DNA of 64,000 nt from Larkinella rosea (GTDB lineage: Bacteria; Bacteroidota; Bacteroidia; Cytophagales; Spirosomataceae), in NCBI RefSeq assembly GCF_003858635.1, contig NZ_RQJO01000010.1, positions 186,001 to 250,000 of the forward strand. Direction: 5' to 3'. The first letter of the stretch is position 1. The number at the start of each line of letters is the position of its first letter. The notes under the pieces are model-generated. The model had not been told where the DNA came from. It did not search any database and saw only the letters and a list, made by a program, of their open reading frames with translations. The position numbers and the translations under genes are program-made. Positions 639-46,710 of the stretch are shown here, piece after piece.

Positions 639-1140
639 CCGTTTTTCCGTTGAGTTAATTACTTCGTCTTCAACTGGCGAGCACTTCCCTGCTTCCTTGC
701 CGGTCACTGTCCCGCTAAATCCATTCGCATGAACATCCTGATTACATTTTCTTCTTAGGAATAACCACAAAACCGGGAAACCGGAATGTAAAATTATCCA
801 TTGGACCGGGTACAATTTTGAAAAATGGCAATCCGGCTGATGTTCAATCGATTTGGAGAACGTGAGAACTTGGATTGCAAAAATCAGATTGTTGACCGGT
901 TAAGCGATTTACCCATTTCCCTAACCTTTTACCGGAATTAATAGGTACATTCATCTGCCCGCTGCCTTAGCAGCTGTGAATCAACCCATTTTATTCAAAG
1001 TTTTACCCGGAACACTCAAATTAGCTGTAAATTCTACCTGATTTGGCAACGTAGATAGAAAATAAACAGACAAAGCAACGGTAAGTTTATTAAATTTCAG
1101 TCGGTTATAATTGGTTGATAATTCAAATCAATTCTGCTGT
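639..1140. other. Intergenic region between divergent genes, 502 bp
   Basis: AT-richer than its neighbours and without a convincing reading frame on either strand. It should hold the promoters of the small exported protein (minus) and the receiver gene (plus), but I could not find a TTTG-N19-TAnnTTTG pair that fits either start. One AAAACCG word occurs near 762. No hairpin-plus-T-run terminator or tRNA is visible. Confidence 0.5.
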
Positions 1141-1620
1141 ATGAACTCTTCCCGAACCAAATCAAACCCGATCCGAAGTCGGCGCGCCCGAATTCTGGTG
1201 ATTGAAGATAATCCGGACCATCAGGTAGTGATAAAAAATGCCATTCATCAAAGTTTCACGGATGTTGATCTTGTTCTGGTAACGACCGAATCTGAAGCCA
1301 TTGAATATCTCGGCAATAGTGTGCTGACCGGCCTGTTGCTGCCTCAACTGATCCTGCTGGAGTTGTATTTACCCAAACGGGAAAATGGATGGAATTGCCT
1401 GAATACCATCAAAAACCACTATCCGGAAACCGGGCAAATACCGGTGATCATGTTTAGCAATTCGACACTCTCCGAAGACATTACCAAATCCTATGACCTG
1501 GGGGCGGCTTCGTATGTGGTGAAGCCGACCGATTTTACGGAATGGGGTGCGTATTTTCAGACGTTGAAAGACTATTGGTGGGAAACCGTTAGTCTTCCCA
1601 GCCGTCCGATAATGTACTAA
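1141..1620 (+). CDS. Single-domain response regulator with Glu at the phospho-acceptor site
   Basis: 159 residues and a stand-alone receiver domain. The start is the ATG at 1141; an extension to 1111 would need a TTG start and adds nothing conserved. The acidic pair is present (ILVIEDNPD, about residues 18-26), as are the switch Ser in MFSNS and the conserved Lys in VVKPTD. The strand-3 acceptor that is normally Asp (LLDLNLP-type) reads LLELYLP, with Glu74 encoded by GAG at 1360-1362. Glu there usually mimics phosphorylation or abolishes it, so this is probably a constitutive or pseudo-receiver of the Rcp1-like class. It has no output domain and would act by protein contact. It is convergent with the kai operon, ending 15 bases from the LytTR gene. 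Confidence 0.85.
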   Translation: MNSSRTKSNPIRSRRARILVIEDNPDHQVVIKNAIHQSFTDVDLVLVTTESEAIEYLGNSVLTGLLLPQLILLELYLPKRENGWNCLNTIKNHYPETGQIPVIMFSNSTLSEDITKSYDLGAASYVVKPTDFTEWGAYFQTLKDYWWETVSLPSRPIMY

Positions 1621-1635
1621 TCAACCCATTGCAAA

Positions 1636-2484
1636 TCAGGCTGGCAGTGGCCTTGGTGCGGCAACAACTTGTGGAACTGCCACCATGGTTAACCAATAAC
1701 GCAACGTTCTTTCCAGCACCTGAATAAACCGGGTCAGGTCCGACGGATGGACAATTACGGAGTTGGCACCCGATGCATAGCCCTCCTGAGCCTGATCCTG
1801 ATCTTCGGCTGAGCTTAACAGCAGGGTCGGAATAAATCGGAAACTGGGGCTTTTTTTGATCGATTTCAACGTGGGCATACTTCTGGATTCGCTGCCATCG
1901 AGAATGATCATGGCGGGCAGATAATCGCCAATCACTTCGGGCAATGCATTTCGGAGCCGGGTGCCGGTTTCAAACAATTCGATCCACCACTGAGGCCATT
2001 TATCATGAACCAGTTGCCGCACCAGGCCCGCTTTCATCTCGTCGGCCATTACGATCCACAAATGCCGGAAAGGTTGTTTTATAGCCCGTGAAATCGGTTC
2101 AACAAAACTTGCAATGGATTGGCTAACAGGAGCTTGAACAACTTCCGATGTAGCGTATAAAGCAGAACTCTTTAGCATGGCAACGGTCAACGGGTTAATT
2201 ATTTCCTGCCAGCGCCGACGGCTAACGGGCAAGATTGTCTCTCCCTGCACCGTCACGGAACCCGCCATTTTGTGTCCCGGAGGAGCCTGTAAATCCGTGA
2301 TGTAGTGCGGGTTGACCAGAGCCGTTTTATGAATCCGAAAAAATCCCGGCAACCGTCCCTCAAAATACACGAGCGACTTGGCTACCAGCAACTTACGCCC
2401 GTCGCAGTAGTGCAGCCACGTGTAATTGCTGAACCCCTTCAAATGGGTAATCAATGCCGGAAATTGAATCGCTTGCTGAATCAT
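1636..2484 (-). CDS. LytTR DNA-binding protein with C-terminal receiver-like domain
   Basis: 282 residues. Residues 1-95 look like a LytTR DNA-binding domain: GFSNYTWLHYCDGRKLLV, then FFRIHKTALVNPHYI and a final LPVSRRRWQEI, the usual LytTR pattern. Residues about 140-265 form a receiver-like fold with an acceptor Asp (MIILDGSES) and a switch Ser pair (LLLSSAED), but the conserved Lys-Pro is replaced (VIVHPSD). The usual LytR/AlgR order is receiver first and LytTR last, so this is inverted. It is the last gene of the run kaiC to glgE, 81 bases after glgE on the same strand. It could be a transcriptional output of the Kai module, but that is inference. Confidence 0.8.
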   Translation of the reverse strand: MIQQAIQFPALITHLKGFSNYTWLHYCDGRKLLVAKSLVYFEGRLPGFFRIHKTALVNPHYITDLQAPPGHKMAGSVTVQGETILPVSRRRWQEIINPLTVAMLKSSALYATSEVVQAPVSQSIASFVEPISRAIKQPFRHLWIVMADEMKAGLVRQLVHDKWPQWWIELFETGTRLRNALPEVIGDYLPAMIILDGSESRSMPTLKSIKKSPSFRFIPTLLLSSAEDQDQAQEGYASGANSVIVHPSDLTRFIQVLERTLRYWLTMVAVPQVVAAPRPLPA

Positions 2485-2565
2485 GTGCTTCTAAACGTAC
2501 GTGCCTTTGCACTGGATAACTTTTTTAGAAGCAAAAGTGCCTGGTTTTCTGAGGCACCGGTTCTG

Positions 2566-4599
2566 TTACACCTCCATTTTCAGCAAATGCATCGGCAAAA
2601 GGTAGGGATCCAGCTCAACATAATTCCACTGTCCTTTCCACGTATAATGGGCTCCGGTTAGCAAATCGTGCACGATGTATTCCTGATCGTCAGCAATACC
2701 CAGCTGCCAGGTTGGTACCTGTACCATGGCGGCCCGCCGGTTATACGCATCGGTATTGATCACCATCAGCAGCCGGTTCGAACCGGTTACTTTCAGATAC
2801 GCCATCAAGGCATCGTCATCAATACGGCAGAATGTGAGGTTATTGGTGGTTTGCAAGGCCGGATTTTCCCGCCGAAGGCGGTTCACAAGCCCAATCAGAT
2901 ACGTAAGCCGGTTGGTCCGACTCCAGTCCCAGCGCCGGATTTCGTATTTTTCCGAGTCAATGTATTCTTCTTTGCCCGGAAACGGCAGGTATTCCATCAG
3001 CTCAAAAGAGGGCCCGTAAATACCGTAATTGGACGACAACGTTGCCGCCAGCAGATACCGGATCAAAAACTGCGGTTCGTGACCCGATTGCAGGATGTAC
3101 GGATTGATGTCGTGCGTGGTTGGCCAGAAGTTGGGCCGATAATAGCTCTTCATCTCGCTCTGCGTCAGCTCCTTCATGTATTCTTCCAGTTCGCGTTTGT
3201 TATTGCGCCAGGTGAAATACGTGTATGATTGGGCAAAACCGCGCTTCGCTAGTTGTTGCATCACCTTCGGTTTGGTGAAGGCTTCGGCCAGAAAAATCAG
3301 GTCCGGATACACTTTCTTCACTTCCGAAATCAGCCATTCCCAGAACTGAAACGGTTTGGTATGCGGGTTATCGACCCGGATGATCCGAACGCCCCACGAC
3401 GCCCAGGTCAGCATTGTTTCCTTCATTTCGATCCAGAGACGCTGCCAGTCTTCGGTTTCAAAATAAACCGGGTAAATGTCCTGGTATTTTTTGGGCGGAT
3501 TTTCGGCGTACTGAATGGTGCCATCGGGCCGTTTTTTGAACCATTCGGGATGATCTTTGGCCCACGGATGATCAGGAGAAACCTGAATCGCCAGATCCAT
3601 CGCCACCTCCATGCCGTGGTTTTTGGCAATGGCAATCAGGTGTTTAAAATCGTCGAGTGTGCCTAGCTCGGGATGAATGGCGGTGTGCCCGCCCAGTTCC
3701 GACCCGATGCCATATGGAACACCGGGTTCGCCCGGTTCCGAAACCACATTGTTGTTTTTTCCCTTCCGAAACGCCTGACCGATCGGGTGAATCGGCGGCA
3801 GATACAGCACGTCAAAACCCAGCGCTTCGATGCGTGGCAGCAATTTTTCCACATCCCGGAACGTACCGTGAACGGGTGCCCCTCCGTCGCCCGTTTCCTG
3901 CGAAGCCGAGCGCGGAAACAGGCAGTACCAGGTACTAAAACCAGCTTTCGAGCGATCGACATCCACCATCAATTCGCGTTCGAACCGGGTCGGGCTCTGC
4001 CGTTCGGGATACCGATTCAACAGCTCCGTAAACTGATCGCTGTGCGCAATCCGAATGGCCTCATTGTATTGAATTTCGTTGTATTCTTCCGCACCTTCCC
4101 TAAACAGTCCGGCCACCCACTCCAGCGTTGATTGATCGTCTCCTTCGGCTTTTCCGGCCATGCCTTCGGCAAAAACCGCACCGGCTTTCAGTTCACTCGT
4201 AATGCGCTGACCAGCCGCCACTTTCAACCCCACTTCGTGCTGCCACGACGCGATATGATCCACCCAGGCTTCAAACGTATACGCATAAAGACCCGGTTTT
4301 TCGACCGAAAAAGAAGAGCCCCACCGATCGTTGTTGATAAAACCCATCGGCACTTCGGACCAGTCCGAATCATCGGCGTGTTTATACATCAGCCGGGCCG
4401 CCAGCTTGTCGTGGCCATCCAGAAAAATATCGGCTTCAACGGCAATGATGTCACCGGGAACAGCTTTGATCGGAAACCGTCCGCCGTCCAGTTCGGGCGT
4501 AACCCGTTCAATAACAACGCGAACGCGTCCGTCAGCTGGCAGATTGGCTGCTTTAAAAACCGCTGCGGCCGATTTGGAGATTTTAGTACGGGTAGCCAT
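2566..4599 (-). CDS. glgE: Alpha-1,4-glucan:maltose-1-phosphate maltosyltransferase GlgE
   Basis: 677 residues, the usual GlgE length. It transfers maltosyl units from maltose-1-phosphate to the end of alpha-1,4-glucans, building cytosolic glycogen-like polymer. It belongs to GH13_3. An N-terminal beta-sandwich (to about residue 130) and helical insert precede the catalytic barrel. The nucleophile Asp410 is seen in GVRIIRVDNPHTKPF, the acid/base Glu439 in FLAEAFT, and the third Asp (about 497) in PTTHDINP. These sit about 16 residues later than the Streptomyces GlgE positions as I recall them. It starts only 20 bases after the response regulator of the kai cluster, so co-transcription is likely. 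No treS, pep2 or glgB lies in this window. Confidence 0.95.
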   Translation of the reverse strand: MATRTKISKSAAAVFKAANLPADGRVRVVIERVTPELDGGRFPIKAVPGDIIAVEADIFLDGHDKLAARLMYKHADDSDWSEVPMGFINNDRWGSSFSVEKPGLYAYTFEAWVDHIASWQHEVGLKVAAGQRITSELKAGAVFAEGMAGKAEGDDQSTLEWVAGLFREGAEEYNEIQYNEAIRIAHSDQFTELLNRYPERQSPTRFERELMVDVDRSKAGFSTWYCLFPRSASQETGDGGAPVHGTFRDVEKLLPRIEALGFDVLYLPPIHPIGQAFRKGKNNNVVSEPGEPGVPYGIGSELGGHTAIHPELGTLDDFKHLIAIAKNHGMEVAMDLAIQVSPDHPWAKDHPEWFKKRPDGTIQYAENPPKKYQDIYPVYFETEDWQRLWIEMKETMLTWASWGVRIIRVDNPHTKPFQFWEWLISEVKKVYPDLIFLAEAFTKPKVMQQLAKRGFAQSYTYFTWRNNKRELEEYMKELTQSEMKSYYRPNFWPTTHDINPYILQSGHEPQFLIRYLLAATLSSNYGIYGPSFELMEYLPFPGKEEYIDSEKYEIRRWDWSRTNRLTYLIGLVNRLRRENPALQTTNNLTFCRIDDDALMAYLKVTGSNRLLMVINTDAYNRRAAMVQVPTWQLGIADDQEYIVHDLLTGAHYTWKGQWNYVELDPYLLPMHLLKMEV

Positions 4600-4619
4600 A
4601 ACAACCTAAAGACTAGTGT

Positions 4620-5045
4620 TTAACCCACCGGTACGCTTTTGCATACCGCCAGGATTTCGTCCATCATCATATTATAGCCGTCTTTCGAAACCGGCTTGGA
4701 TTTCACCAGAGAACCACCCCGTTTCAGGCATTCATCGACCAGTTCCTGACCCACATACGTTGAATAAATGACGACATGAATTCGTGAAAACCGCTCATTG
4801 GACCGGATGTAACTCAGTGTTTCCAGACCCGTCAGTTTGGGCATATTCTGATCCAGAATGATTACATCCGGCAACAATTCGCTCAGCGAAACTCCATTCA
4901 GGTATTCAATCACCTCAACGCCGGTGGTAAGACCGGGCAGGAGCCTGATGTCGGTTCGATCACCTAAAAAATCAGCAAAAAAATCCCGATCGTCGACATC
5001 GTCTTCCGCAAGCAGGATTTTCTTTTTAGCTTCATCAAGGGGCAT
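4620..5045 (-). CDS. Single-domain response regulator of the kai operon
   Basis: 141 residues and a receiver domain only. All key residues are present: acidic cluster LLAEDDVDDR (residues 11-20), phospho-acceptor Asp65 in VIILDQNMPK, switch Ser/Thr in VVIYST, and conserved Lys117 in VKSKP. It begins one base after the stop of the PAS histidine kinase, so the two are almost certainly a cognate pair. It lacks a DNA-binding output domain, so its signal must pass by protein contact or to another regulator; the LytTR protein two genes downstream is a candidate. Confidence 0.9.
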   Translation of the reverse strand: MPLDEAKKKILLAEDDVDDRDFFADFLGDRTDIRLLPGLTTGVEVIEYLNGVSLSELLPDVIILDQNMPKLTGLETLSYIRSNERFSRIHVVIYSTYVGQELVDECLKRGGSLVKSKPVSKDGYNMMMDEILAVCKSVPVG

Positions 5046-5046
5046 T

Positions 5047-6327
5047 TCAAGACGGATTATTTTGCCTTAAAGGTAAGCTAATAATGAATGTAGACCCAAC
5101 TCCTTCCCGACTATGTGCTTTAATTCGGCCATTGTGTTTGTCGATGATCCGTTTCGTAACGGCCAGCCCAATGCCCGAACCTTCGTAGATGTCCTTCGTA
5201 TTCAGTCGCTGAAACAGCGAAAATATTTTTTCAACGTATTGTTCATCGAAGCCAATTCCATTATCTGAAATTGAAATCGAAGCAAACGGAATATCGGCCG
5301 GGTCGTCGACATTGGCTGACGGCAGGCTTTTAATTTCGATCACCGGTGGCTGATCGGAACGGCTAAATTTAAGGGCGTTGCTGATCAGATTCTGAAAAAC
5401 CTGCCGGATCTGGCCCGGATTGACCTCCAGTTCGGGCAATCTGCCGACCACAACCCGGGCTTTCTGCTCCTGAATCCGCAGTTCAAAATCTTTCAGGACT
5501 TCATGGACAATATCCGTTAAATCCATGATTTCGTAACTGTCGTTCTGCGTCGAAAGGCGGGAGTAGCTCAGAATATCGATAATCATAGTCCGCATCCGGT
5601 TCGATGAATCAATGATTTTTTCCAGGTATTTCACGCTGTCGGCCGGCAGTTCTCCCAGATGGCGGTCTTTCAGGATTTCCGAAAACATCTGGATTTTCCG
5701 CAGGGGTTCCTGTAAATCGTGGGACGCCACCGACGCAAACTGTTGCAGATCATGGTTGCTGACTTCGAGGGCGATATTCATTTCCTCCAACCGTTCGTTG
5801 TTGGATTTCAGCAACTTCTGCGTTTCTTTCTGGCTCGTCAGATCCGTGATGATCACGCTCATTGCAACACCGCCGTCCAGTTCCAGCGCTGTTACCGAAA
5901 GCTGGCAGGGCACCAACCCGTTGCTGCTCAATATAGACGTTTCGACTTTGGTGTCTTCGGTCCAGCCATGCTCGAACAACTGTTCGTATTGCTCTTTGCA
6001 ATCGGGTGGAATGAAGGTTTCGAAGGATAAGGCAATGACTTTCGACAGTGGCAAACCGACCATCGACGCAAACGTTGAATTGCAGTACAGAATTAATCCT
6101 TCCTCATTCAGCGTTACCGCGCCTTCGTTCATGGTTTCGATAAAAACCCGGTAGGTTTGATCGGCGGTTTTCAGGCTGTAGAGTTCGTGGCCGTCTTTTC
6201 CCTCCACCACTAGCGCATCGACCTGGCCCGTTCGGATGGCATGGATGGTTTCGGTAGCCTCATCCAGTTGAATGAGTAAGGCTTCGTTCTCTTCCACAAG
6301 CTGATCGTACGTTTTGGGCGTATTCAT
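5047..6327 (-). CDS. PAS-domain sensor histidine kinase linked to kaiBC
   Basis: 426 residues, no membrane segment, so cytoplasmic. A short N-terminal coil (VEENEALLIQLDEATETIHA) is followed by the IRTGQVDALVV motif, a PAS domain (about 58-170), a coil, HisKA and HATPase_c. The phospho-acceptor is His203 in ASHDLQEP. The N box is QNLISNALKFS (Asn313 region), G1 is SDNGIGF (about 354-360), and G2 is GSGIGL (383-388). There is no KaiB-like (SasA-type) sensor domain. The start overlaps the second kaiB by four bases and the next response regulator follows after one base, indicating tight coupling. By context it could read KaiC/KaiB state, taking the place SasA holds in cyanobacteria; that is inference. 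Confidence 0.9.
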   Translation of the reverse strand: MNTPKTYDQLVEENEALLIQLDEATETIHAIRTGQVDALVVEGKDGHELYSLKTADQTYRVFIETMNEGAVTLNEEGLILYCNSTFASMVGLPLSKVIALSFETFIPPDCKEQYEQLFEHGWTEDTKVETSILSSNGLVPCQLSVTALELDGGVAMSVIITDLTSQKETQKLLKSNNERLEEMNIALEVSNHDLQQFASVASHDLQEPLRKIQMFSEILKDRHLGELPADSVKYLEKIIDSSNRMRTMIIDILSYSRLSTQNDSYEIMDLTDIVHEVLKDFELRIQEQKARVVVGRLPELEVNPGQIRQVFQNLISNALKFSRSDQPPVIEIKSLPSANVDDPADIPFASISISDNGIGFDEQYVEKIFSLFQRLNTKDIYEGSGIGLAVTKRIIDKHNGRIKAHSREGVGSTFIISLPLRQNNPS

Positions 6328-6647
6328 TCACTTCCAGTAGAAATTCCCAGGCCCTTGAGCACTTTTGCCGTATCCGACATATCACCGATCAGCCTGCGCT
6401 GGGGCATGGGCAGTTTTTTAATCAATAATGGCAATGCAATAATCTGTTCACTTTCGGCAAGAGCTTTTTGCTGATACACATCGATAATTTCCAGTGAATA
6501 CCTTCCCGGAATATACATATCACAGATGTGTTTCAGATTGGCAATGGCGCGAATGGAATTGATCGACGCGCCAGTCACGAACAGGCGCAGTTCATAGGCC
6601 GGTTCGTCGTTAGACTCTAAATCCGAAAGTGTTACTGGTTCGATCAT
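6324..6647 (-). CDS. kaiB: KaiB-like protein, divergent copy
   Basis: 107 residues, thioredoxin-like KaiB family. Recognisable KaiB landmarks are [20 protein letters not shown] near the N-terminus, the proline-rich segment [15 protein letters not shown] and the conserved [16 protein letters not shown]. It differs from canonical KaiB (PTL to PLL, IIGDLS to LIGDMS) and carries about 12 extra N-terminal residues. In cyanobacteria KaiB switches fold to bind the KaiC CI ring. The gene overlaps the first kaiB upstream and the histidine kinase downstream by four bases each (ATGA-type), so the three are translationally coupled. It may be a specialised partner for the kinase, or bind KaiC with a different affinity. 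Confidence 0.85.
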
Positions 6648-6943
6648 TCTGTTTTCTTTGCCGGACGAATATTCAATCCCACCAATACTTTTTCTTCATT
6701 CGACAAGTCACCGATAATTTTCCGGATTGGCTCCGGTACTTTTTTTACCAGCGTCGGAATCGCCAGAATCTGGTCTCCTTCGGCCAATTGCGGCTGAACC
6801 AGCAAATCAATCACTTCAATAACGTATTTATCCTTTAAATGCTCTTCACAATAGCGTTTCAGATTGGATAGTGCGGTAACGGATTTAGCGGTTTTTCCGG
6901 CCACATAGAGCCTTAACTCCCATATTTCCTCTTTTGTTTCCAT
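6644..6943 (-). CDS. kaiB: KaiB-like circadian clock protein, canonical copy
   Basis: 99 residues, close to the cyanobacterial KaiB length. It follows the classic pattern closely: [20 protein letters not shown], then [18 protein letters not shown], the proline motif [14 protein letters not shown], and [15 protein letters not shown]. These cover the segment that refolds in the fold-switched state bound to KaiC. Charged ends and no signal peptide indicate a cytosolic protein. It lies 130 bases after kaiC, separated by a palindromic repeat element, and overlaps the second kaiB by four bases. Its assignment is much firmer than that of the second copy. Confidence 0.93.
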
Positions 6944-6973
6944 TCAGGTTTAGTAGGTTTACGGTTTAAAGTA

Positions 6974-7067
6974 GACGGTTTTCAATTTTCGGAGGGTCGA
7001 CGTTTCGGTATGCGGTGTAAAAGCTCGCGTCAGCTAACCGAATACAGAAAACCGAAAACCGTATACT
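6974..7067. repeat. Intergenic palindromic repeat, member B
   Basis: This lies in the 130-base gap between kaiC and kaiB. Its left part (6974-7008) matches the left arm of the element at 10287-10321 at 30 of 35 positions. It also shares the GCGTCAGC word (7027-7034) and the closing GAAAACCGTATACT (7054-7067). The right arm is degenerate, so the hairpin is weaker than at 10284. It could process or attenuate the kaiC-kaiB transcript, or simply be a mobile intergenic repeat. Confidence 0.65.
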
Positions 7068-7073
7068 GATTAC

Positions 7074-8786
7074 TTATTGTTCGTTGTGTCGGTTCCGTGT
7101 CATTTGCTCCCGATTTTTTTCTATCACCTCTTTCCGCAACTCCTCTTCCACGTACGCTTTGTTCAACTCGTCCTGCACCGATTCAAATTCTTCTTTCAAA
7201 CTGGCAATCTTCGACTCCAGCACCAGCCGTTTCCGTTCAATTTCACGGTCTTTCCGGTTGACGGCATTCTGGTGTAAAACCACCCCGGTTTTTTCCAGCA
7301 ACTGTTGGGATTCCCGGGCCGAACCCGTCAATACCCCTTCCGGACCCAGGTACACATCCACCAAACTGAGCCCTTCGTCGGTAATGACAAACTCCCGAAC
7401 CTGGTTCGAATGCTTCATTCCGCGCGACTTCATGATGTACAAGCCCCGGTTTCGCTCCCCGTTCGATTCAATCTCGCGCACCAGCACCCAGGCATCCACC
7501 AGCGACGAAACCCCCTCATCGGTTTGTTCATTGATAATGGTGTTCAGCGAAAGTGCCGTAAACATCACCGTGATCTGCCGCGATTGCAGAAAGTCAATGA
7601 GCCGCATCAGCATCGATTTCACTTCGCTTACCGAGCCCACCGTAATCAGATTGGTAATCGGGTCAAAAGTAACTACCTGCGGATCAAACATTTCAACCAT
7701 TTTATGAATTGATAACAGGTGCATTTCCAACCCGGTAAGGGAGGGTCGCGACGCCTGAAACTCCAGCAAACCGTTGTCGACATGCTGCTGAAGGTCGATT
7801 CCGATCGAGCGCATGTTCCGAATGATCTGTAGGGGTGATTCCTCAAAGGCAAAGTAGATCGCCCGTTTTTTCTGGTTGCAGGCTTCATGGATGAAGCTGG
7901 CGGCAATGCTGGTCTTTCCCGTACCGGCGGTTCCGGAAACCAGAATGCTGCTTCCCCGGAAAAACCCTTTACCTTCGAGCATTTTATCCATCGACGGAAT
8001 GCCGGATGAGACCCGGTCTGTCGTGACGTCATGCGCCAGCGTCAGCGACGTAATCGGCAGCACAGAAATACCGGTTCCATCGATCAGAAAAGGATATTCA
8101 TTGGTGCCGTGAACGGTGCCCCGGTATTTGACAATGCGCAAAAGCCGCGTCGAAATCTGGTTCGCAATGCGGTGATCGAGCAGAATCACACAGTCGGAAA
8201 TGTATTCTTCCAGGCCGTTGCGGGTTAACATCCCTTCGCCTTTTTCACCGGTAATAATGGCTGTTACCTTTTTCTCCTTCAGCCAGTCAAAAAGCCGCCG
8301 AAGTTCGGCCCGCAGAATGCTCTGATCAAGCAGACCGGAGAATAGATTCTCGACGGTGTCGAGCACCACCCGTTTGGCTCCGATGCTATCGATGGCGTAG
8401 CCCAGTCGGATAAAAAGACCATCCAGATCATATTCACCGGTTTCTTCAATTTCACTCCGATCAATCCGGACATAATCCATTTTGATTAATTTATCCCGCT
8501 GAAGCTGGTCCAGATCATAGCCCAGCGAGATGACATTCATGGCCAGCTCTTCGGCCTTCTCCTCGAAGGACATAAAAACGCCGGGTTCTCCGTAGAGAAG
8601 GGCACCATGTGCGATAAATTCGATGGAAAATAAGGTTTTACCGCAGCCCGCTCCTCCGCAAATCAGCGTCGGTCGGCCACTCGGCAAGCCACCAGCGGTA
8701 ATTTCATCCAATCCCGTAATTCCGGTCGGCGATTTAGGTAACGAACCACTTGGGAAGTCAGCTTTTGTTGAGGATTTTAAACTCAT
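7074..8786 (-). CDS. kaiC: KaiC-type double-domain clock ATPase/autokinase
   Basis: 570 residues with two RecA-like domains. CI has Walker A GGAGCGKT (44-51) and the catalytic Glu pair FEE (75-76). CII has Walker A GTAGTGKT (285-292) and FEES (315-316). The region around QTDEGVSSLVDAW aligns with the cyanobacterial phosphorylation site: Thr422, Ser427 and Ser428 stand where Thr426, Ser431 and Thr432 are in Synechococcus, so a two-residue site is kept as Ser-Ser. The C-terminus (about 510-565) is a highly charged predicted coiled coil, longer than in KaiC of Synechococcus. No KaiA gene is visible. It is the first gene of the kai-glgE run, with a TAGATTTG -7 box upstream. Confidence 0.93.
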   Translation of the reverse strand: MSLKSSTKADFPSGSLPKSPTGITGLDEITAGGLPSGRPTLICGGAGCGKTLFSIEFIAHGALLYGEPGVFMSFEEKAEELAMNVISLGYDLDQLQRDKLIKMDYVRIDRSEIEETGEYDLDGLFIRLGYAIDSIGAKRVVLDTVENLFSGLLDQSILRAELRRLFDWLKEKKVTAIITGEKGEGMLTRNGLEEYISDCVILLDHRIANQISTRLLRIVKYRGTVHGTNEYPFLIDGTGISVLPITSLTLAHDVTTDRVSSGIPSMDKMLEGKGFFRGSSILVSGTAGTGKTSIAASFIHEACNQKKRAIYFAFEESPLQIIRNMRSIGIDLQQHVDNGLLEFQASRPSLTGLEMHLLSIHKMVEMFDPQVVTFDPITNLITVGSVSEVKSMLMRLIDFLQSRQITVMFTALSLNTIINEQTDEGVSSLVDAWVLVREIESNGERNRGLYIMKSRGMKHSNQVREFVITDEGLSLVDVYLGPEGVLTGSARESQQLLEKTGVVLHQNAVNRKDREIERKRLVLESKIASLKEEFESVQDELNKAYVEEELRKEVIEKNREQMTRNRHNEQ

Positions 8787-8862: not shown

Positions 8863-8950
8863 AACTAATTAAAAAACCGGCAGGTAGTGCAGCAATATTT
8901 TTTAAGATGCATAACTTAATTTTTATAGCCAGTGTTTAAATCAACCTTCC

Positions 8951-8989
8951 AAAAAAGAAAAAGGATAGAAGCAAATGTTCCTATCCTTT
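8951..8989 (-). terminator. Intrinsic terminator closing the DUF3179 cluster
   Basis: A perfect 9-bp stem (AAAGGATAG at 8960-8968 with CTATCCTTT at 8981-8989) and a 12-base loop, followed on the minus strand by TTCTTTTTT. It lies about 90 bases past the stop of the DUF3179 gene and separates that cluster from kaiC. Confidence 0.8.
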
Positions 8990-9079: not shown

Positions 9080-10267
9080 TCACAAATACCGCGACGACGC
9101 CGGGTGGAACGTCTCCCACGAATGCAGGTATTCCTGTGATGCCGGAATGCGGGCCAGTTTTTTCCCCTTTAGTAATCCATCCGTACAAATGCCGTGGCGG
9201 TTCCAGACTGACCCGGTTTCCTGATCCCGCAACCGATCGGTCGAATCTGCCGAGAAATGCAGCGTTTGCCCGTTCACTTTCCGGTTCCAGACGTGAAACG
9301 TAGCGCTGTCGGAAGCCACCATCAGCAGCAACGGAGTTCCCGCCAGACTGTCGTTGGTTACTTTTTGTTTCAATAACTGGCTCCAGTCGTAGGCCCGGGC
9401 GGTTTTGTTCTGCTCGACCCCGACAACCCACGATTTGGGTTTCCACGCCAGGCTATCGCGTCCCGTCAGTTTCCGTTTCACTTTGCCTTTTTCGTACGGT
9501 TCCATACTCGCATACTGCTCCTTGAACGTCGAATCGGGCTGCAAAACCAGCGTTTCAGGATGCAGTTCGGACCAGGCCTGCAAGGTCATCTGTTCAGCCT
9601 GCATTGCGGGCAGGTACTGCCCTTTCAAGGGGCCGGCAATCGCTTCTCCGTTGACCTGCCGCCACCAGCTACCCGTGGTTTTGTCTTCGAACATGGCGTT
9701 GAAATGGTCCATGCCCACCAGCCTGAATTCTTCTTTTTTATCGCCCACCAACGGCCGGAACACCCGGCCCGTGCGGCAAACCGTGCAGTACGTAATCATC
9801 ACCGGCTCACCACCCACCGTGTCCCGAACCTGGTGGTGGTACCCGATGAACTGAATCGGATAGGCCCGCGCCTGCCCGTTGACAACCAGTCCTAAAACCA
9901 ATTTATTGGGCGGGATTTTGCTGTTTTTTACAGCCAGCATCACGATATTTCTGGGCTGATAAAACATCTTCTCGGCCAGGTATTTGAAGTTGAACAGGTA
10001 GAAAACCGTCCCGTAAACCGCCAGCAGCACCAGCATCGACGCTTTCCGCCAAACGCGTTTTGGTTCGGTCAACAACTTGAAAACCGGATAGGCAATCAGC
10101 AGCCAGCCCAGCACCCGGATGATCCAGATATTCTGGTGAATCCAGTACGCAAAGTCGATCGTCTCGGCTTCCTGACTACCCGGCATCGGCATAATGAAGT
10201 AGACTTTCGCGATCTCGGCTGCCGTCAACAGCAAAATACCGAATATAAAAAGGAGTATATTTCTCAT
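9080..10267 (-). CDS. DUF3179 domain membrane protein
   Basis: 395 residues. Three hydrophobic segments lie in the first 100 residues (about 4-26, 47-66, 78-97), after which the chain is soluble and probably extracytoplasmic. The soluble part has the DUF3179 hallmarks: RAYPIQFIGYHHQVRD, then PVMITYCTVCRTGRVF with a CxxC pair, and MDHFNAMFEDKTTGSWW followed by EAIAGPLKG. The C-terminal part repeats family features (ARAYDWSQL, DQETGSVWN). The molecular function of DUF3179 is not known to me; the CxxC and His-rich motifs suggest metal or redox chemistry. It is the last gene of the long minus-strand cluster, 156 bases after an AhpD-like gene with a large palindrome between, and ends at a clear terminator. 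Confidence 0.85.
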   Translation of the reverse strand: MRNILLFIFGILLLTAAEIAKVYFIMPMPGSQEAETIDFAYWIHQNIWIIRVLGWLLIAYPVFKLLTEPKRVWRKASMLVLLAVYGTVFYLFNFKYLAEKMFYQPRNIVMLAVKNSKIPPNKLVLGLVVNGQARAYPIQFIGYHHQVRDTVGGEPVMITYCTVCRTGRVFRPLVGDKKEEFRLVGMDHFNAMFEDKTTGSWWRQVNGEAIAGPLKGQYLPAMQAEQMTLQAWSELHPETLVLQPDSTFKEQYASMEPYEKGKVKRKLTGRDSLAWKPKSWVVGVEQNKTARAYDWSQLLKQKVTNDSLAGTPLLLMVASDSATFHVWNRKVNGQTLHFSADSTDRLRDQETGSVWNRHGICTDGLLKGKKLARIPASQEYLHSWETFHPASSRYL

Positions 10268-10283
10268 AGAATTTGGGTTTTCG

Positions 10284-10424
10284 GTATACGGTTTTCAGTT
10301 TTCGCCGGGCCGACGTTTCGGATGCTTAGACATTCGGTGTTCAATATTCGTTATTCGCTATTTAAGAATGCGTCAGCAACCGAAACGTCGGCCCGGCGAA
10401 AACCGTAAACTGAAAACCGTATAC
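10284..10424. repeat. Large intergenic palindromic repeat, member A
   Basis: Left arm 10284-10321 and right arm 10380-10424 are inverted copies. The inner 19 bases (10303-10321 and 10380-10398) pair perfectly. The outer GTATACGGTTTTCAGTTT also pairs perfectly, with one 7-base insertion in the right arm. The loop is 58 bases and ends in GCGTCAGCAA. The right end touches the TAG stop of the AhpD-like gene at 10424. AAAACCG words are built into both arms. Confidence 0.85.
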
Positions 10425-43631: not shown

Positions 43632-45086
43632 ATGCAAAGACTCAGCCTTACCCAATCTCTTCAGCAAAAGCTGTCTCCGCAACAGATTCAGTTTATTAAA
43701 CTGTTGCAGATTCCGACTGCCGAACTGGAAACCCGGGTTGAAGAAGAACTGGAAATAAATCCGGCCCTGGAAGAGGGTCCCGATACGGAATACGAAGACT
43801 CGAATGCGGACGATCCGTTTTCGGATGAATACGACGACGATTACAAGGAACGGAATGACGATGTCGATCTGGGAAGTTATCTGAACGAAGATGACTACAA
43901 CGGCTATAAAATGCAGGGAGACGGCAATTATAGCGAAGAAGACCGCGAAATGCCGGTGGCTAACCGGTCGACCCTGACCGACACGCTGATGCAGCAATTT
44001 GGCTACCTGAACCTCGACGAGCGGCAGGAAGTCATTGGCATGCAGCTCATTGGCAGCATTGAAAACGACGGTTACATCCGGCGGTCGATGCAGGCTATTG
44101 TAAACGATCTGGCTTTTTCGCACGGCATTTTTACGGATACGGACGAACTGGAAACGGTTTTGAAACGGGTTCAGACTTTTGATCCGCCGGGCATTGCCGC
44201 CCGCTCACTGCAGGAATGCCTGCTGCTGCAACTGCACCGCAAGGATTCCAACGATCCGGCGGTTCCGCTGGCAATCCGGATCATTGAAGACCTCTTCGAG
44301 GAATTTTCGAAAAAACACTACGACAAAATCCAGAAACGGCTGAATGTCACGGAGGAACAGCTCAAAAAAGTCATTCAGATCATTACCAAACTGAATCCCA
44401 AACCGGGTTCGGTTGAGGGCGAAGACGGCGCGGTGCAATACCTGATTCCAGATTTTATCCTGACCAACAACGCCGGTAAAATCGAACTGACCCTCAACTC
44501 GCGCAACGCGCCTGAACTTCGCATCAGCCGGTCGTTTGCCGAGATGCTGGATACGTACGAAAAAAGTGACAAGAATAACCGCTCACTGAAAGAAACCGTC
44601 TCGTTTGTCAAGCAGAAACTCGATGCGGCCAAGTGGTTTATCGACGCCATCAAGCAACGCCAGGCAACGCTGCTGAAAACGATGAATGCCATCGTGAAAT
44701 TTCAGTACGATTTTTTTCTGGAAGGCGACGAGAATAAACTGCATCCCATGATTCTGAAGGACATCGCCAACCTGATCGACATGGACGTTTCGACGGTTTC
44801 GCGCGTGGCCAACAGCAAAGCCGTTCAGACCGAATTCGGCATTTATCCGCTCAAATACTTTTTTTCCGAAGGCATTGCGACCGACTCGGGCGAGGACGTC
44901 AGCAGCCGGGAAGTAAAAAATATCCTGAAGGAATTTATCGATCAGGAACCCAAAGGCAACCCGCTGTCGGACGATAAACTGGAAAAAATGCTCAACGAAC
45001 GGGGGTACAACATTGCCCGCCGAACCGTGGCCAAATACCGGGAGCAGCTAAACATTCCGGTTGCCCGGCTGCGGAAGCAGTTGTAA
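43632..45086 (+). CDS. rpoN: RNA polymerase sigma-54 factor RpoN
   Basis: 484 residues. Region I, the enhancer-responsive part, is visible as LTQSLQQKLSPQQIQFIKLLQIPT with conserved Gln-Leu spacing. An acidic linker (EDSNADDPFSDEYDDDY) follows. The core-binding domain has RVQTFDPPGIAARSLQECLLLQL. The HTH has DMDVSTVSRVANSKAV, and the RpoN box is ARRTVAKYRE (about 462-471). It directs transcription from GG/GC-type -24/-12 promoters with AAA+ activators, none of which is encoded in this window. A CGGTTTTGGG word lies just after its stop. Confidence 0.96.
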   Translation: MQRLSLTQSLQQKLSPQQIQFIKLLQIPTAELETRVEEELEINPALEEGPDTEYEDSNADDPFSDEYDDDYKERNDDVDLGSYLNEDDYNGYKMQGDGNYSEEDREMPVANRSTLTDTLMQQFGYLNLDERQEVIGMQLIGSIENDGYIRRSMQAIVNDLAFSHGIFTDTDELETVLKRVQTFDPPGIAARSLQECLLLQLHRKDSNDPAVPLAIRIIEDLFEEFSKKHYDKIQKRLNVTEEQLKKVIQIITKLNPKPGSVEGEDGAVQYLIPDFILTNNAGKIELTLNSRNAPELRISRSFAEMLDTYEKSDKNNRSLKETVSFVKQKLDAAKWFIDAIKQRQATLLKTMNAIVKFQYDFFLEGDENKLHPMILKDIANLIDMDVSTVSRVANSKAVQTEFGIYPLKYFFSEGIATDSGEDVSSREVKNILKEFIDQEPKGNPLSDDKLEKMLNERGYNIARRTVAKYREQLNIPVARLRKQL

Positions 45087-45146
45087 CGGTATACGGTTTT
45101 GGGCCTTCCATGCATTCAAATCGCGGAGCTTTGTTAATTTTGTTGA

Positions 45147-45836
45147 ATGATTGACGAGCAACGGCTGACCGAAGACCCAAAACCGAAAACCGAATCCGTG
45201 AGCACCGCGTTTGCCCGTGCGCTGTCGGCGGTTTTCCATCCGCTGCTGATGCCCACCCTTCTATTCAGTATCCTGTTTTTTGGCGCTCCGGAAGCATTGG
45301 GCGTCAGCATGCTCGAAAACCGGTCGAAGGTCAGTCTGCTGCTATTAATTGGCATCAGCACGTTCTTCATTCCGGCTTTCCTGATTTATTTTCTGCACCG
45401 CACCGGTTTTGTTCGCAGTTTGCACATGGACGAGTTGCAGGACCGCCGGTTACCTTATTTCATGACGGCCCTGCTCTATACGACAACGACTCTGTTGTTC
45501 ACGTTTCAACTGCCCGAAATTTCGAATTCGGTGCCTGAAATAGGCATTCTGCTGGGCAGCATAACCGTGTCCGTTACGCTGGTGGGACTGATCAGCCTAT
45601 TCTGGAAAATCAGCGCCCACAGTGTGGGAGTCAGTGGCATGGTGGGGGCGTTGCTGGGCATTGCCATCAAATCCGGGGACATTACGCTTTTGAATCCGTT
45701 ACTCGCCCTCATCCTACTGGCGGGTTTGCTGGCCAGCGCCCGTCTGAAACTGAATGCACACACGCCCGCACAAATCGCTGCCGGAATGGGTCTGGGCCTA
45801 CTGGTAAGCCTGACGACGGTAATGTTTCTGGTTTAA
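45147..45836 (+). CDS. Integral membrane protein, possibly PAP2-related
   Basis: 229 residues, with a hydrophilic N-terminus of about 25 residues and five to six hydrophobic segments. The segment LFWKISAHSVGVSGMVG and the later ARLKLNAHTPAQIAAG recall the His-containing loops of the PAP2 membrane phosphatase family, but the full KxxxxxxRP and SRxxxxxHxxxD motifs are not visible. An enzyme role is therefore uncertain. It starts 60 bases after rpoN on the same strand and is followed by the palindrome at 45843. Confidence 0.6.
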   Translation: MIDEQRLTEDPKPKTESVSTAFARALSAVFHPLLMPTLLFSILFFGAPEALGVSMLENRSKVSLLLLIGISTFFIPAFLIYFLHRTGFVRSLHMDELQDRRLPYFMTALLYTTTTLLFTFQLPEISNSVPEIGILLGSITVSVTLVGLISLFWKISAHSVGVSGMVGALLGIAIKSGDITLLNPLLALILLAGLLASARLKLNAHTPAQIAAGMGLGLLVSLTTVMFLV

Positions 45837-45842
45837 AAAATG

Positions 45843-45892
45843 GTTTACGGTGGCTGACGCGCGCTGCCATGAACGCGTCAGCCACCGTAAAC
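45843..45892. repeat. Intergenic palindrome, member C
   Basis: A perfect 19-bp inverted repeat: GTTTACGGTGGCTGACGCG (45843-45861) and its complement (45874-45892), with a 12-base loop. It is followed by AGAAAACCGTAAACC. It shares GCGTCAGC and AAAACCGTA with members A and B. It sits between the membrane protein and the enoyl-CoA hydratase gene and could also act as a terminator-like stem. Confidence 0.75.
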
Positions 45893-45915
45893 AGAAAACC
45901 GTAAACCGAAAAAAT

Positions 45916-46710
45916 ATGTACGAACACCTGCTTTACACCACTTCCGACGGCATTTGCCGCATTACGCTCAACCGCCCGCAGGTTCATAACGCCCTCAATC
46001 CGGCGCTGATTCGGGAACTCACGCAGGCTGTGAAATCCGCCGGGGCCGATGATTTCGTCCGGGTAGTCGTGCTAACCGGCACGGGCGACAAGGCATTTTG
46101 TTCCGGGGCCGATTTGAAAGAAGCCGCCGAACAACTGCAAGCGGGCAGCGGTTTTTCGATGGGCGATCTGCTGCGAACGACGTATCATCCGATGGTAGAA
46201 GCCATTCGGAACTTGCCAAAACCGGTGATTTGCCGGATGAACGGGGTGGCCGCCGGAGCGGGTTGCTCGCTGGCCCTGGCCTGTGATGTCGTCATTGCCG
46301 CCGACGAAGCCTATCTATCGCTGTTGTTTGTCGGTATCGGGTTGATGCCCGACGCCGGTTCAACGTTTTTTCTTCCGCGGCTGGTGGGTTCACAAAAGGC
46401 GTTCGAATTATGCAGTACGGGTCGGCGGGTGTATGGGCCAGAAGCCGCGCAACTGGGCCTGATCACGCGCTCGGTTCCGGCGACGGAGTTGGATACCGCC
46501 GTTGCCGAAACCGTCCGCCAGTATGCGGCAGCCCCAACCCAGGCCATTGGTCTGATGAAATTAGCGTTGAACCAGTCGTTGTACACCCCGCTGACGTCCC
46601 AACTGGAGCAAGAGGCTCAGTATCAGAATCAGCTGGGGCACTCACACGACGCCATCGAAGGCATCACGGCCTTTCTGCAAAAACGGAAACCGGTTTTTCG
46701 GGGAAAATGA
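45916..46710 (+). CDS. Enoyl-CoA hydratase/isomerase family protein (PaaG-like)
   Basis: 264 residues from the ATG at 45916; the longer frame from 45850 runs through the palindrome and is not conserved. The crotonase fold is clear: ITLNRPQVHNALNPAL, then the oxyanion-hole segment KAFCSGADLKEAA, then MNGVAAGAGCSLALACDVVIA. The GLMPDAGSTFFLPRLVG segment, with Asp at the second catalytic position, is the pattern of PaaG-type epoxyphenylacetyl-CoA/enoyl-CoA isomerases. No other phenylacetate genes are near, so the pathway is open. Cytosolic. Confidence 0.88.
   Translation: MYEHLLYTTSDGICRITLNRPQVHNALNPALIRELTQAVKSAGADDFVRVVVLTGTGDKAFCSGADLKEAAEQLQAGSGFSMGDLLRTTYHPMVEAIRNLPKPVICRMNGVAAGAGCSLALACDVVIAADEAYLSLLFVGIGLMPDAGSTFFLPRLVGSQKAFELCSTGRRVYGPEAAQLGLITRSVPATELDTAVAETVRQYAAAPTQAIGLMKLALNQSLYTPLTSQLEQEAQYQNQLGHSHDAIEGITAFLQKRKPVFRGK

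Follow-up and report, generated by a model that had tools for sequence, protein, structure and literature searches.

In R. sphaeroides and Rhodopseudomonas palustris, kaiC, kaiB and a gene for a PAS histidine kinase follow one another in a kaiC-B-PAS/HK operon that has been called a proto-circadian or hourglass timer, and the accessible portion of the same source gives kaiA as limited to cyanobacteria (PMC4794148). A Nature 2023 paper attributes, in its accessible text, an ATP/ADP-driven hourglass to the KaiBC pair of R. sphaeroides (PMC10076222). A KaiB2/KaiC2 group from Bacteroidetes has been described by Schmelling et al. 2017, who reported an SS phosphosite pair for KaiC2; the available part of that description makes no mention of a kinase-receiver-glgE arrangement (PMC5520375). 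With regard to glucan synthesis, clusters of the TreS-Pep2-GlgE-GlgB type are described for Pontibacter in the available text of PMC11206854. For Defluviicoccus genomes, both kaiC/kaiB and the GlgE pathway are reported, separately and unlinked in the accessible text (PMC9041414).

The window analysed here is a stretch of 64,000 nucleotides from Larkinella rosea. Seven minus-strand reading frames, kaiC through a LytTR regulator gene, lie where the original prediction had placed them, as judged by coordinates and Pfam matches. They are kaiC (7074..8786; 570 amino acids, two RecA-like domains, Pfam KaiC ATPase in two stretches, E 2.4e-104), kaiB1 (6644..6943; 99 amino acids, Pfam KaiB, 8.9e-28), kaiB2 (6324..6647; 107 amino acids, a second KaiB with a lower score, 1.5e-22), a PAS histidine kinase gene (5047..6327; 426 amino acids, Pfam PAS, HisKA and HATPase_c), a single-domain response regulator gene (4620..5045; 141 amino acids, Pfam Response_reg), glgE (2566..4599; Pfam GlgE_dom_N_S and GLGE_C) and the LytTR gene (1636..2484; Pfam LytTR, with a degenerate C-terminal receiver fold). 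The spacing along this run is 130, -4, -4, 1, 20 and 81 bases, just as had been claimed, and glgE does start 20 bases past the response regulator gene (gap at 4600..4619, minus strand). The 8.17 Mb genome carries one double-domain KaiC and one full-length GlgE. A dispersed repeat is contained in the 130 bp between kaiC and kaiB1 (6944..7073, minus strand), with 15 further partial matches genome-wide at 70-93% identity, two of them near window positions 10276-10325 and 45874-45908. The same gap measures 98 bp in L. terrae and 12-13 bp in the remaining four genomes that have kai beside glgE.

Among solved structures, the nearest to this KaiC are the R. sphaeroides entries 8dba and 8fwi. Residues 16-569 align with 8dba (R. 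sphaeroides KaiC) at 638 bits, versus 356 bits for the best PDB entry of another kind, 8zn5, and 312 bits for 1u9i, which we take to be S. elongatus KaiC. Each half has a Walker A motif and a catalytic EE, and the C-terminal extension aligns, by sequence only, with the coiled-coil tail of 8dba to residue 569. The phosphosite pair is SS (residues 427-428), which recurs in 42 of the 43 kaiC compared, the remaining one having AS. For KaiB1, the nearest solved structure is 8fwj_M, the KaiB chain of an entry that contains the phosphomimetic form of R. sphaeroides KaiC. The claim that a Bacteroidota cell carries a KaiBC of the KaiA-less hourglass type thus finds support in the nearest PDB entries of its predicted KaiC, 8dba and 8fwi.

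In common with the R. sphaeroides and R. palustris operon, the locus has the order kaiC, kaiB, PAS kinase, together with the SS dyad and the alignment just described, and it adds a second kaiB, a single-domain receiver and glgE to the run. Phylum and SS dyad are also those of the KaiB2/KaiC2 group. The cyanobacterial KaiABC-SasA-RpaA system likewise combines KaiB, KaiC, a histidine kinase and a response regulator. However, no SasA-like KaiB domain is present in the Larkinella kinase by Pfam and model scan, in agreement with what had been stated from the sequence, and the 141 amino acid receiver yields only Response_reg in Pfam, with no output or DNA-binding domain found. Model NF006800, which also matches the KaiBs, covers kinase residues 167-422 only.

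The enzyme encoded by glgE looks like a standard maltosyltransferase from its sequence. It matches the N/S domain (PF11896, 182.5 bits) and the GlgE C-terminal domain (PF21702, 80.9 bits), and its RVDNPHTKP and FLAEAFT motifs and THDI/TPDI aspartate align with 3zss; the catalytic residues of S. coelicolor GlgE1 are presumably D394, E423 and D480. Past glgE and the LytTR gene lie a convergent single-domain response regulator gene that is resident in the glgE cluster (1111..1620, plus strand), two small genes, a maltokinase gene (Pep2, 376.1 bits against a cut-off of 375.05), glgB (959.6 bits) and an Alpha-E gene. The presence of glgE near maltokinase and glgB is shared with the TreS-Pep2-GlgE-GlgB clusters. 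Unlike these, Larkinella has a kai cassette beside glgE and its treS match elsewhere, where the TreS model scores 910 bits, over its cut-off, on separate contig C15 of the window genome. This match (positions 44555-46168) falls within a 1111 amino acid open frame whose length allows a TreS-maltokinase fusion, in addition to the separate maltokinase of the glgE cluster. Neither GlgA nor GlgC scores above its curated cut-off in any of nine Larkinella genomes, all of which have GlgE, and kai therefore adjoins the only full-length glucan polymerase gene identified. All nine do contain a frame of 285 amino acids that is similar to the N-terminal half of GlgA (contig C11, 729751-730449, in L. rosea).

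LytTR and glgE also occur together without kai, which rules out a seven-gene unit of single origin. The LytTR gene had been proposed as a member of the module; the gene and its domains are real, but it is part of the older glgE neighbourhood and not of the kai unit. In its gene content, the locus is best described as two units of apparently different age, wherein kaiC-kaiB-kaiB-kinase-receiver sits inside an older GlgE-pathway cluster composed of DUF3179, glgE, LytTR, maltokinase and glgB. The LytTR protein has a reversed order, with LytTR first and the receiver last. Its receiver half has no Pfam match at E 0.01, and residues about 140-268 are predicted to follow the (beta-alpha)5 receiver order, with pLDDT per ten-residue block of 60-86; the LytTR half is modelled poorly. 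The best PDB match for the receiver fold is 6xvu (Foldseek, E 5e-8), followed by Rcp1, and the nearest regulators are thus of the bacteriophytochrome/Rcp1 type. This receiver is presumably degenerate, with H, Y or L near what we take to be the position of the conserved lysine.

There are nine genomes of the genus Larkinella in the sample, of which seven have kaiC, all nine have glgE and six have the two side by side. These six are L. rosea (the window), L. terrae, L. knui, L. punicea, L. humicola and Larkinella sp. C7. In L. arboricola, kai is located on a different contig from glgE, and genomes G100 and G016 have no kai. In neighbourhood maps made by tblastn, L. arboricola and G100 have the same glgE cluster, with DUF3179 directly 5' of glgE, and in G016 the DUF3179 gene is some 7 kb from glgE. 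Absence of the linkage in close relatives had been set beforehand as a ground for rejecting it, and the outcome is divided, with three of nine congeners lacking the link and six of nine having it.

Outside the genus, the arrangement was not found in any sample searched. A sample of 150 genomes from the family contains KaiB over the cut-off in 40 and GlgE in 114. Other genera contribute 33 of the KaiB genomes, and none of the 32 that also have GlgE shows kai near glgE, with separate contigs scored as unlinked in 20 of the 32. A sample of 390 genomes from the order has KaiB in 92, and GlgE was searched in 67 of these (62 of other families and five further members of the family of Larkinella). 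No linkage is seen in the 16 that carry both genes, eight of which were scored as unlinked on separate contigs. GlgE is without a match in 51 of the 67, and the KaiB genomes of other families divide into 11 of 62 with GlgE and 51 of 62 without. The nearest kai-glgE pairs on shared contigs outside Larkinella are 343 kb and about 169 kb apart. Among 35 named kaiC loci, glgE is present in five, all from Larkinella. Finally, flanking sequence fetched for 40 other kai loci, in some cases cut short by a contig edge, contains none of glgE, pep2, glgB or GH13 relatives, and two positive controls were found by the same search.

By these family, order and named-locus samples, kai loci are not commonly linked to glgE, and the glucan reading does not extend to the other Kai loci sampled. 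A search of Bacteroidota genomes for a conserved kaiC-kaiB-kaiB-HK-RR-glgE order had been proposed; the order occurs in six Larkinella and in no other genus sampled. The kaiC-kaiB-kaiB core is widespread, from Bacteroidota to Geobacteraceae and Methylococcaceae, and kaiC is followed by two KaiB-like matches in 32 of the 35 named loci, the other three being cut by contig ends. A kai cassette with kinase and response regulator and no glgE is found in G054 and in a Segetibacter MAG. Within the family sample, GlgE accompanies KaiB in 39 of 40 genomes versus 75 of 110 without KaiB (Fisher p 6e-5), a statistic that ignores kinship; for this reason, and because GlgE is found in only 11 of the 62 KaiB genomes from other families, the correlation is given no weight. 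Two damaged matches were also noted: in G104 a partial kaiB is interrupted by an in-frame stop (C14:572495-572665), and in G214 the glgE match is split in two and contains a stop (C18:824571-826512). The frequency of KaiB in the order (92 of 390) contrasts with a remark, in the accessible text of PMC11573002, that KaiB and KaiC are rare among Bacteroidota. A literature search whose reach mostly excluded subscription papers recognised no report of the kai-glgE arrangement; the kaiC-kaiB-PAS/HK operon by itself is already known from the available part of PMC4794148.

In L. arboricola and G100, the stretch between DUF3179 and glgE contains first a hairpin-like sequence, which is weaker in G100, and further on a block AAACACTC-N12-CGGTTATGTTTGTGA. 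All six linked genomes have a related block, again with a 12-base spacing, 84-152 bases 5' of kaiC, where it scores 20, 20, 20, 19, 18 and 16 of 23; the two kai-less loci, from which the block was defined, score 23 by construction. The best scores elsewhere are 15 (12 other kaiC), 14 (13 glgE of other genera) and 12 (G016). Across about 604 kb of sequence from Larkinella, a figure that counts both strands and overlapping loci, a single unrelated site reaches 18. The window's own block (8903..8937, minus strand) is weak at 16 of 23, a score that several other window sites equal or exceed (16-17), and it is accepted only because of its position and its better-matching relatives. A terminator-like hairpin (8960..8989, minus strand) lies between the block and the DUF3179 gene (9080..10267, minus strand), which forms the upstream flank of the insertion site, and similar sequence separates DUF3179 from glgE in L. 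arboricola. The Bacteroidota -7 element is TAnnTTTG, and TATGTTTG within the block resembles what we take to be this element. The block may be a promoter; its absence 5' of 12 other kaiC, of 13 other glgE and in G016 rules it out as kai's own promoter or as a family-wide glgE promoter.

In alignments of the whole intergenic stretches, seven pairs beat all 500 shuffles, which preserved single-base composition only: L. arboricola with L. rosea, L. humicola, sp. C7 and L. terrae, and G100 with L. punicea, L. humicola and sp. C7. Five of the 12 pairs did not (counts out of 500: L. arboricola with L. knui, 1, and L. punicea, 22; G100 with L. rosea, 111, L. knui, 33, and L. terrae, 2). For the control, which used the region 5' of L. 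arboricola's own kaiC, the counts were 146 and 472, and the kai-less stretches may hold some 30 coding bases. The strong L. arboricola matches and that of G100 with sp. C7 fall at the hairpin, and those of G100 with L. punicea and L. humicola and of L. arboricola with L. knui fall at the block.

In the kaiC tree, the sequences from the six linked genomes group together as a clade (100/99), and the kaiC of L. arboricola groups with G048, from another genus (99/98). This tree omits eight named loci, of which seven repeat genomes already included and the eighth is L132 (Spirosoma endophyticum). In the tree of resident genes, each obtained for between 5 and 17 of the 17 taxa, the six linked genomes again form a clade (100/100), with L. 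arboricola and G100 outside and G016 further out. Matches covering less than 80% of the query or containing stops were dropped from the kaiC and kinase trees, as were kinases below 250 bits, and the kinase tree is without the L. arboricola kinase. The L. arboricola kai genes (L076, 8173-11803) are a differently related cassette at another site; no receiver match adjoins it, and its kaiC groups with genus g26. These groupings suggest that kai cassettes may move between genera.

One insertion in the ancestor of the six linked Larkinella is, on the trees, the simplest history. The block precedes glgE in the two kai-less loci and, in a related form, kaiC in the six linked genomes, so that the cassette apparently landed between glgE and its putative promoter, and the same flanking genes with and without kai also count for an insertion. 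Thus, a KaiBC cassette of kaiC, two kaiB, a PAS kinase and a single-domain receiver would have entered an existing GlgE-pathway cluster and landed between glgE and its putative promoter, leaving the former glgE promoter region 5' of kaiC and the kai genes under glgE's old control. Since this region now lies 5' of kaiC and only 20-23 bases separate the response regulator gene from glgE, the six genes from kaiC through glgE are likely carried on one transcript. If the R. sphaeroides mechanism carries over, KaiC would self-phosphorylate at high ATP/ADP, KaiB would help to hold it dephosphorylated at low ATP/ADP, and the PAS kinase and receiver would pass its state onward. We assign a probability of roughly 0.6 to this reading as a whole, namely the insertion, the single transcript of six genes and, by analogy, an hourglass.

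The kai-glgE link apparently arose once, in a single genus, and a function therefore gains no support from independent recurrence. One possibility, which we regard as doubtful but by no means negligible, is that the cassette landed once by chance and that its order has been kept through general conservation of the region, with kai and glgE functionally unconnected. The restriction to one genus, the lack of the tested glucan genes beside 40 other kai loci and the 51 of 62 KaiB genomes of other families without a GlgE match are all as expected from this account. The resident DUF3179, MFS and TonB genes are likewise kept in order, so that retention of kai beside glgE proves little by itself. Against it, the gap between the response regulator gene and glgE is steady (20 bases in the window; 22 in four of the other linked genomes and 23 in the fifth), whereas that between DUF3179 and kaiC ranges from 169 to 383, and a shared promoter, if real, would bring about co-expression even after an accidental landing. 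It is distinctly less probable that the cassette already stood at this site in the common ancestor of the eight Larkinella sharing the DUF3179-glgE neighbourhood, with a later clean loss in the lineage of L. arboricola and G100. Those two kai-less loci form a single sister clade (100/100), and one gain with one loss would fit. Yet this history requires an extra event, the earlier-branching G016 has no kai and its DUF3179 some 7 kb from glgE, and L. arboricola has a differently related cassette.

Internal promoters are common, and glgE might also retain one of its own inside the receiver gene, which would allow regulation apart from kai. The original prediction would have been undermined by a promoter or terminator splitting glgE from kai, and a scan that covers promoters other than those of Bacteroidota lists no minus-strand site in the response regulator gene or in the gap that follows it. 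The promoter and terminator scans are at chance overall (9 found versus 9.3; 12 versus 10.0), which leaves some room for an internal promoter, but the gap is only 20-23 bases and the block found 5' of glgE in kai-less loci sits 5' of kaiC instead. An internal glgE promoter is accordingly judged improbable, and the promoter evidence, if it points anywhere, favours glgE's old regulation now driving the kai genes. A different question is what the module senses. Larkinella is not known to be photosynthetic, and the Kai proteins could regulate by stress or energy state instead of timing the day, in which case glgE would serve storage under stress, a reading to which we give somewhat less than an even chance. 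The accessible literature ties KaiC2-type homologues to stress response in Legionella (PMC5520375), and the R. sphaeroides mechanism responds to ATP/ADP in the available text of PMC10076222; on the other side, the R. sphaeroides protein, to which this KaiC is closest, has been described as an hourglass timer.

Under the insertion reading, glgE's old control might set the dose of Kai, which would couple timer dose to glucan synthesis, and Kai might control glucan through the kinase and receiver, although this receiver lacks an output domain and none of the other kai loci fetched lies with the glucan genes looked for. Perhaps, in one Larkinella lineage, the promoter of the sole full-length glucan polymerase gene identified now also drives a Kai hourglass that reads ATP/ADP, such that storage synthesis and timer abundance rise together in a feedback loop hard-wired by one genomic event. 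We hold this last proposal to be tentative and rather unlikely.

A timer and a storage enzyme are probably placed on one transcript, and closely related Larkinella species differ in whether the two are linked. Because these differences lie within one genus, a possible role of primitive Kai timers in carbon storage becomes directly testable. If the feedback loop is real, a non-cyanobacterial Kai timer would have been hard-wired to glucan storage by a single genomic event, and L. arboricola, whose kai genes are unlinked, and G100, which has none, would serve as natural controls.
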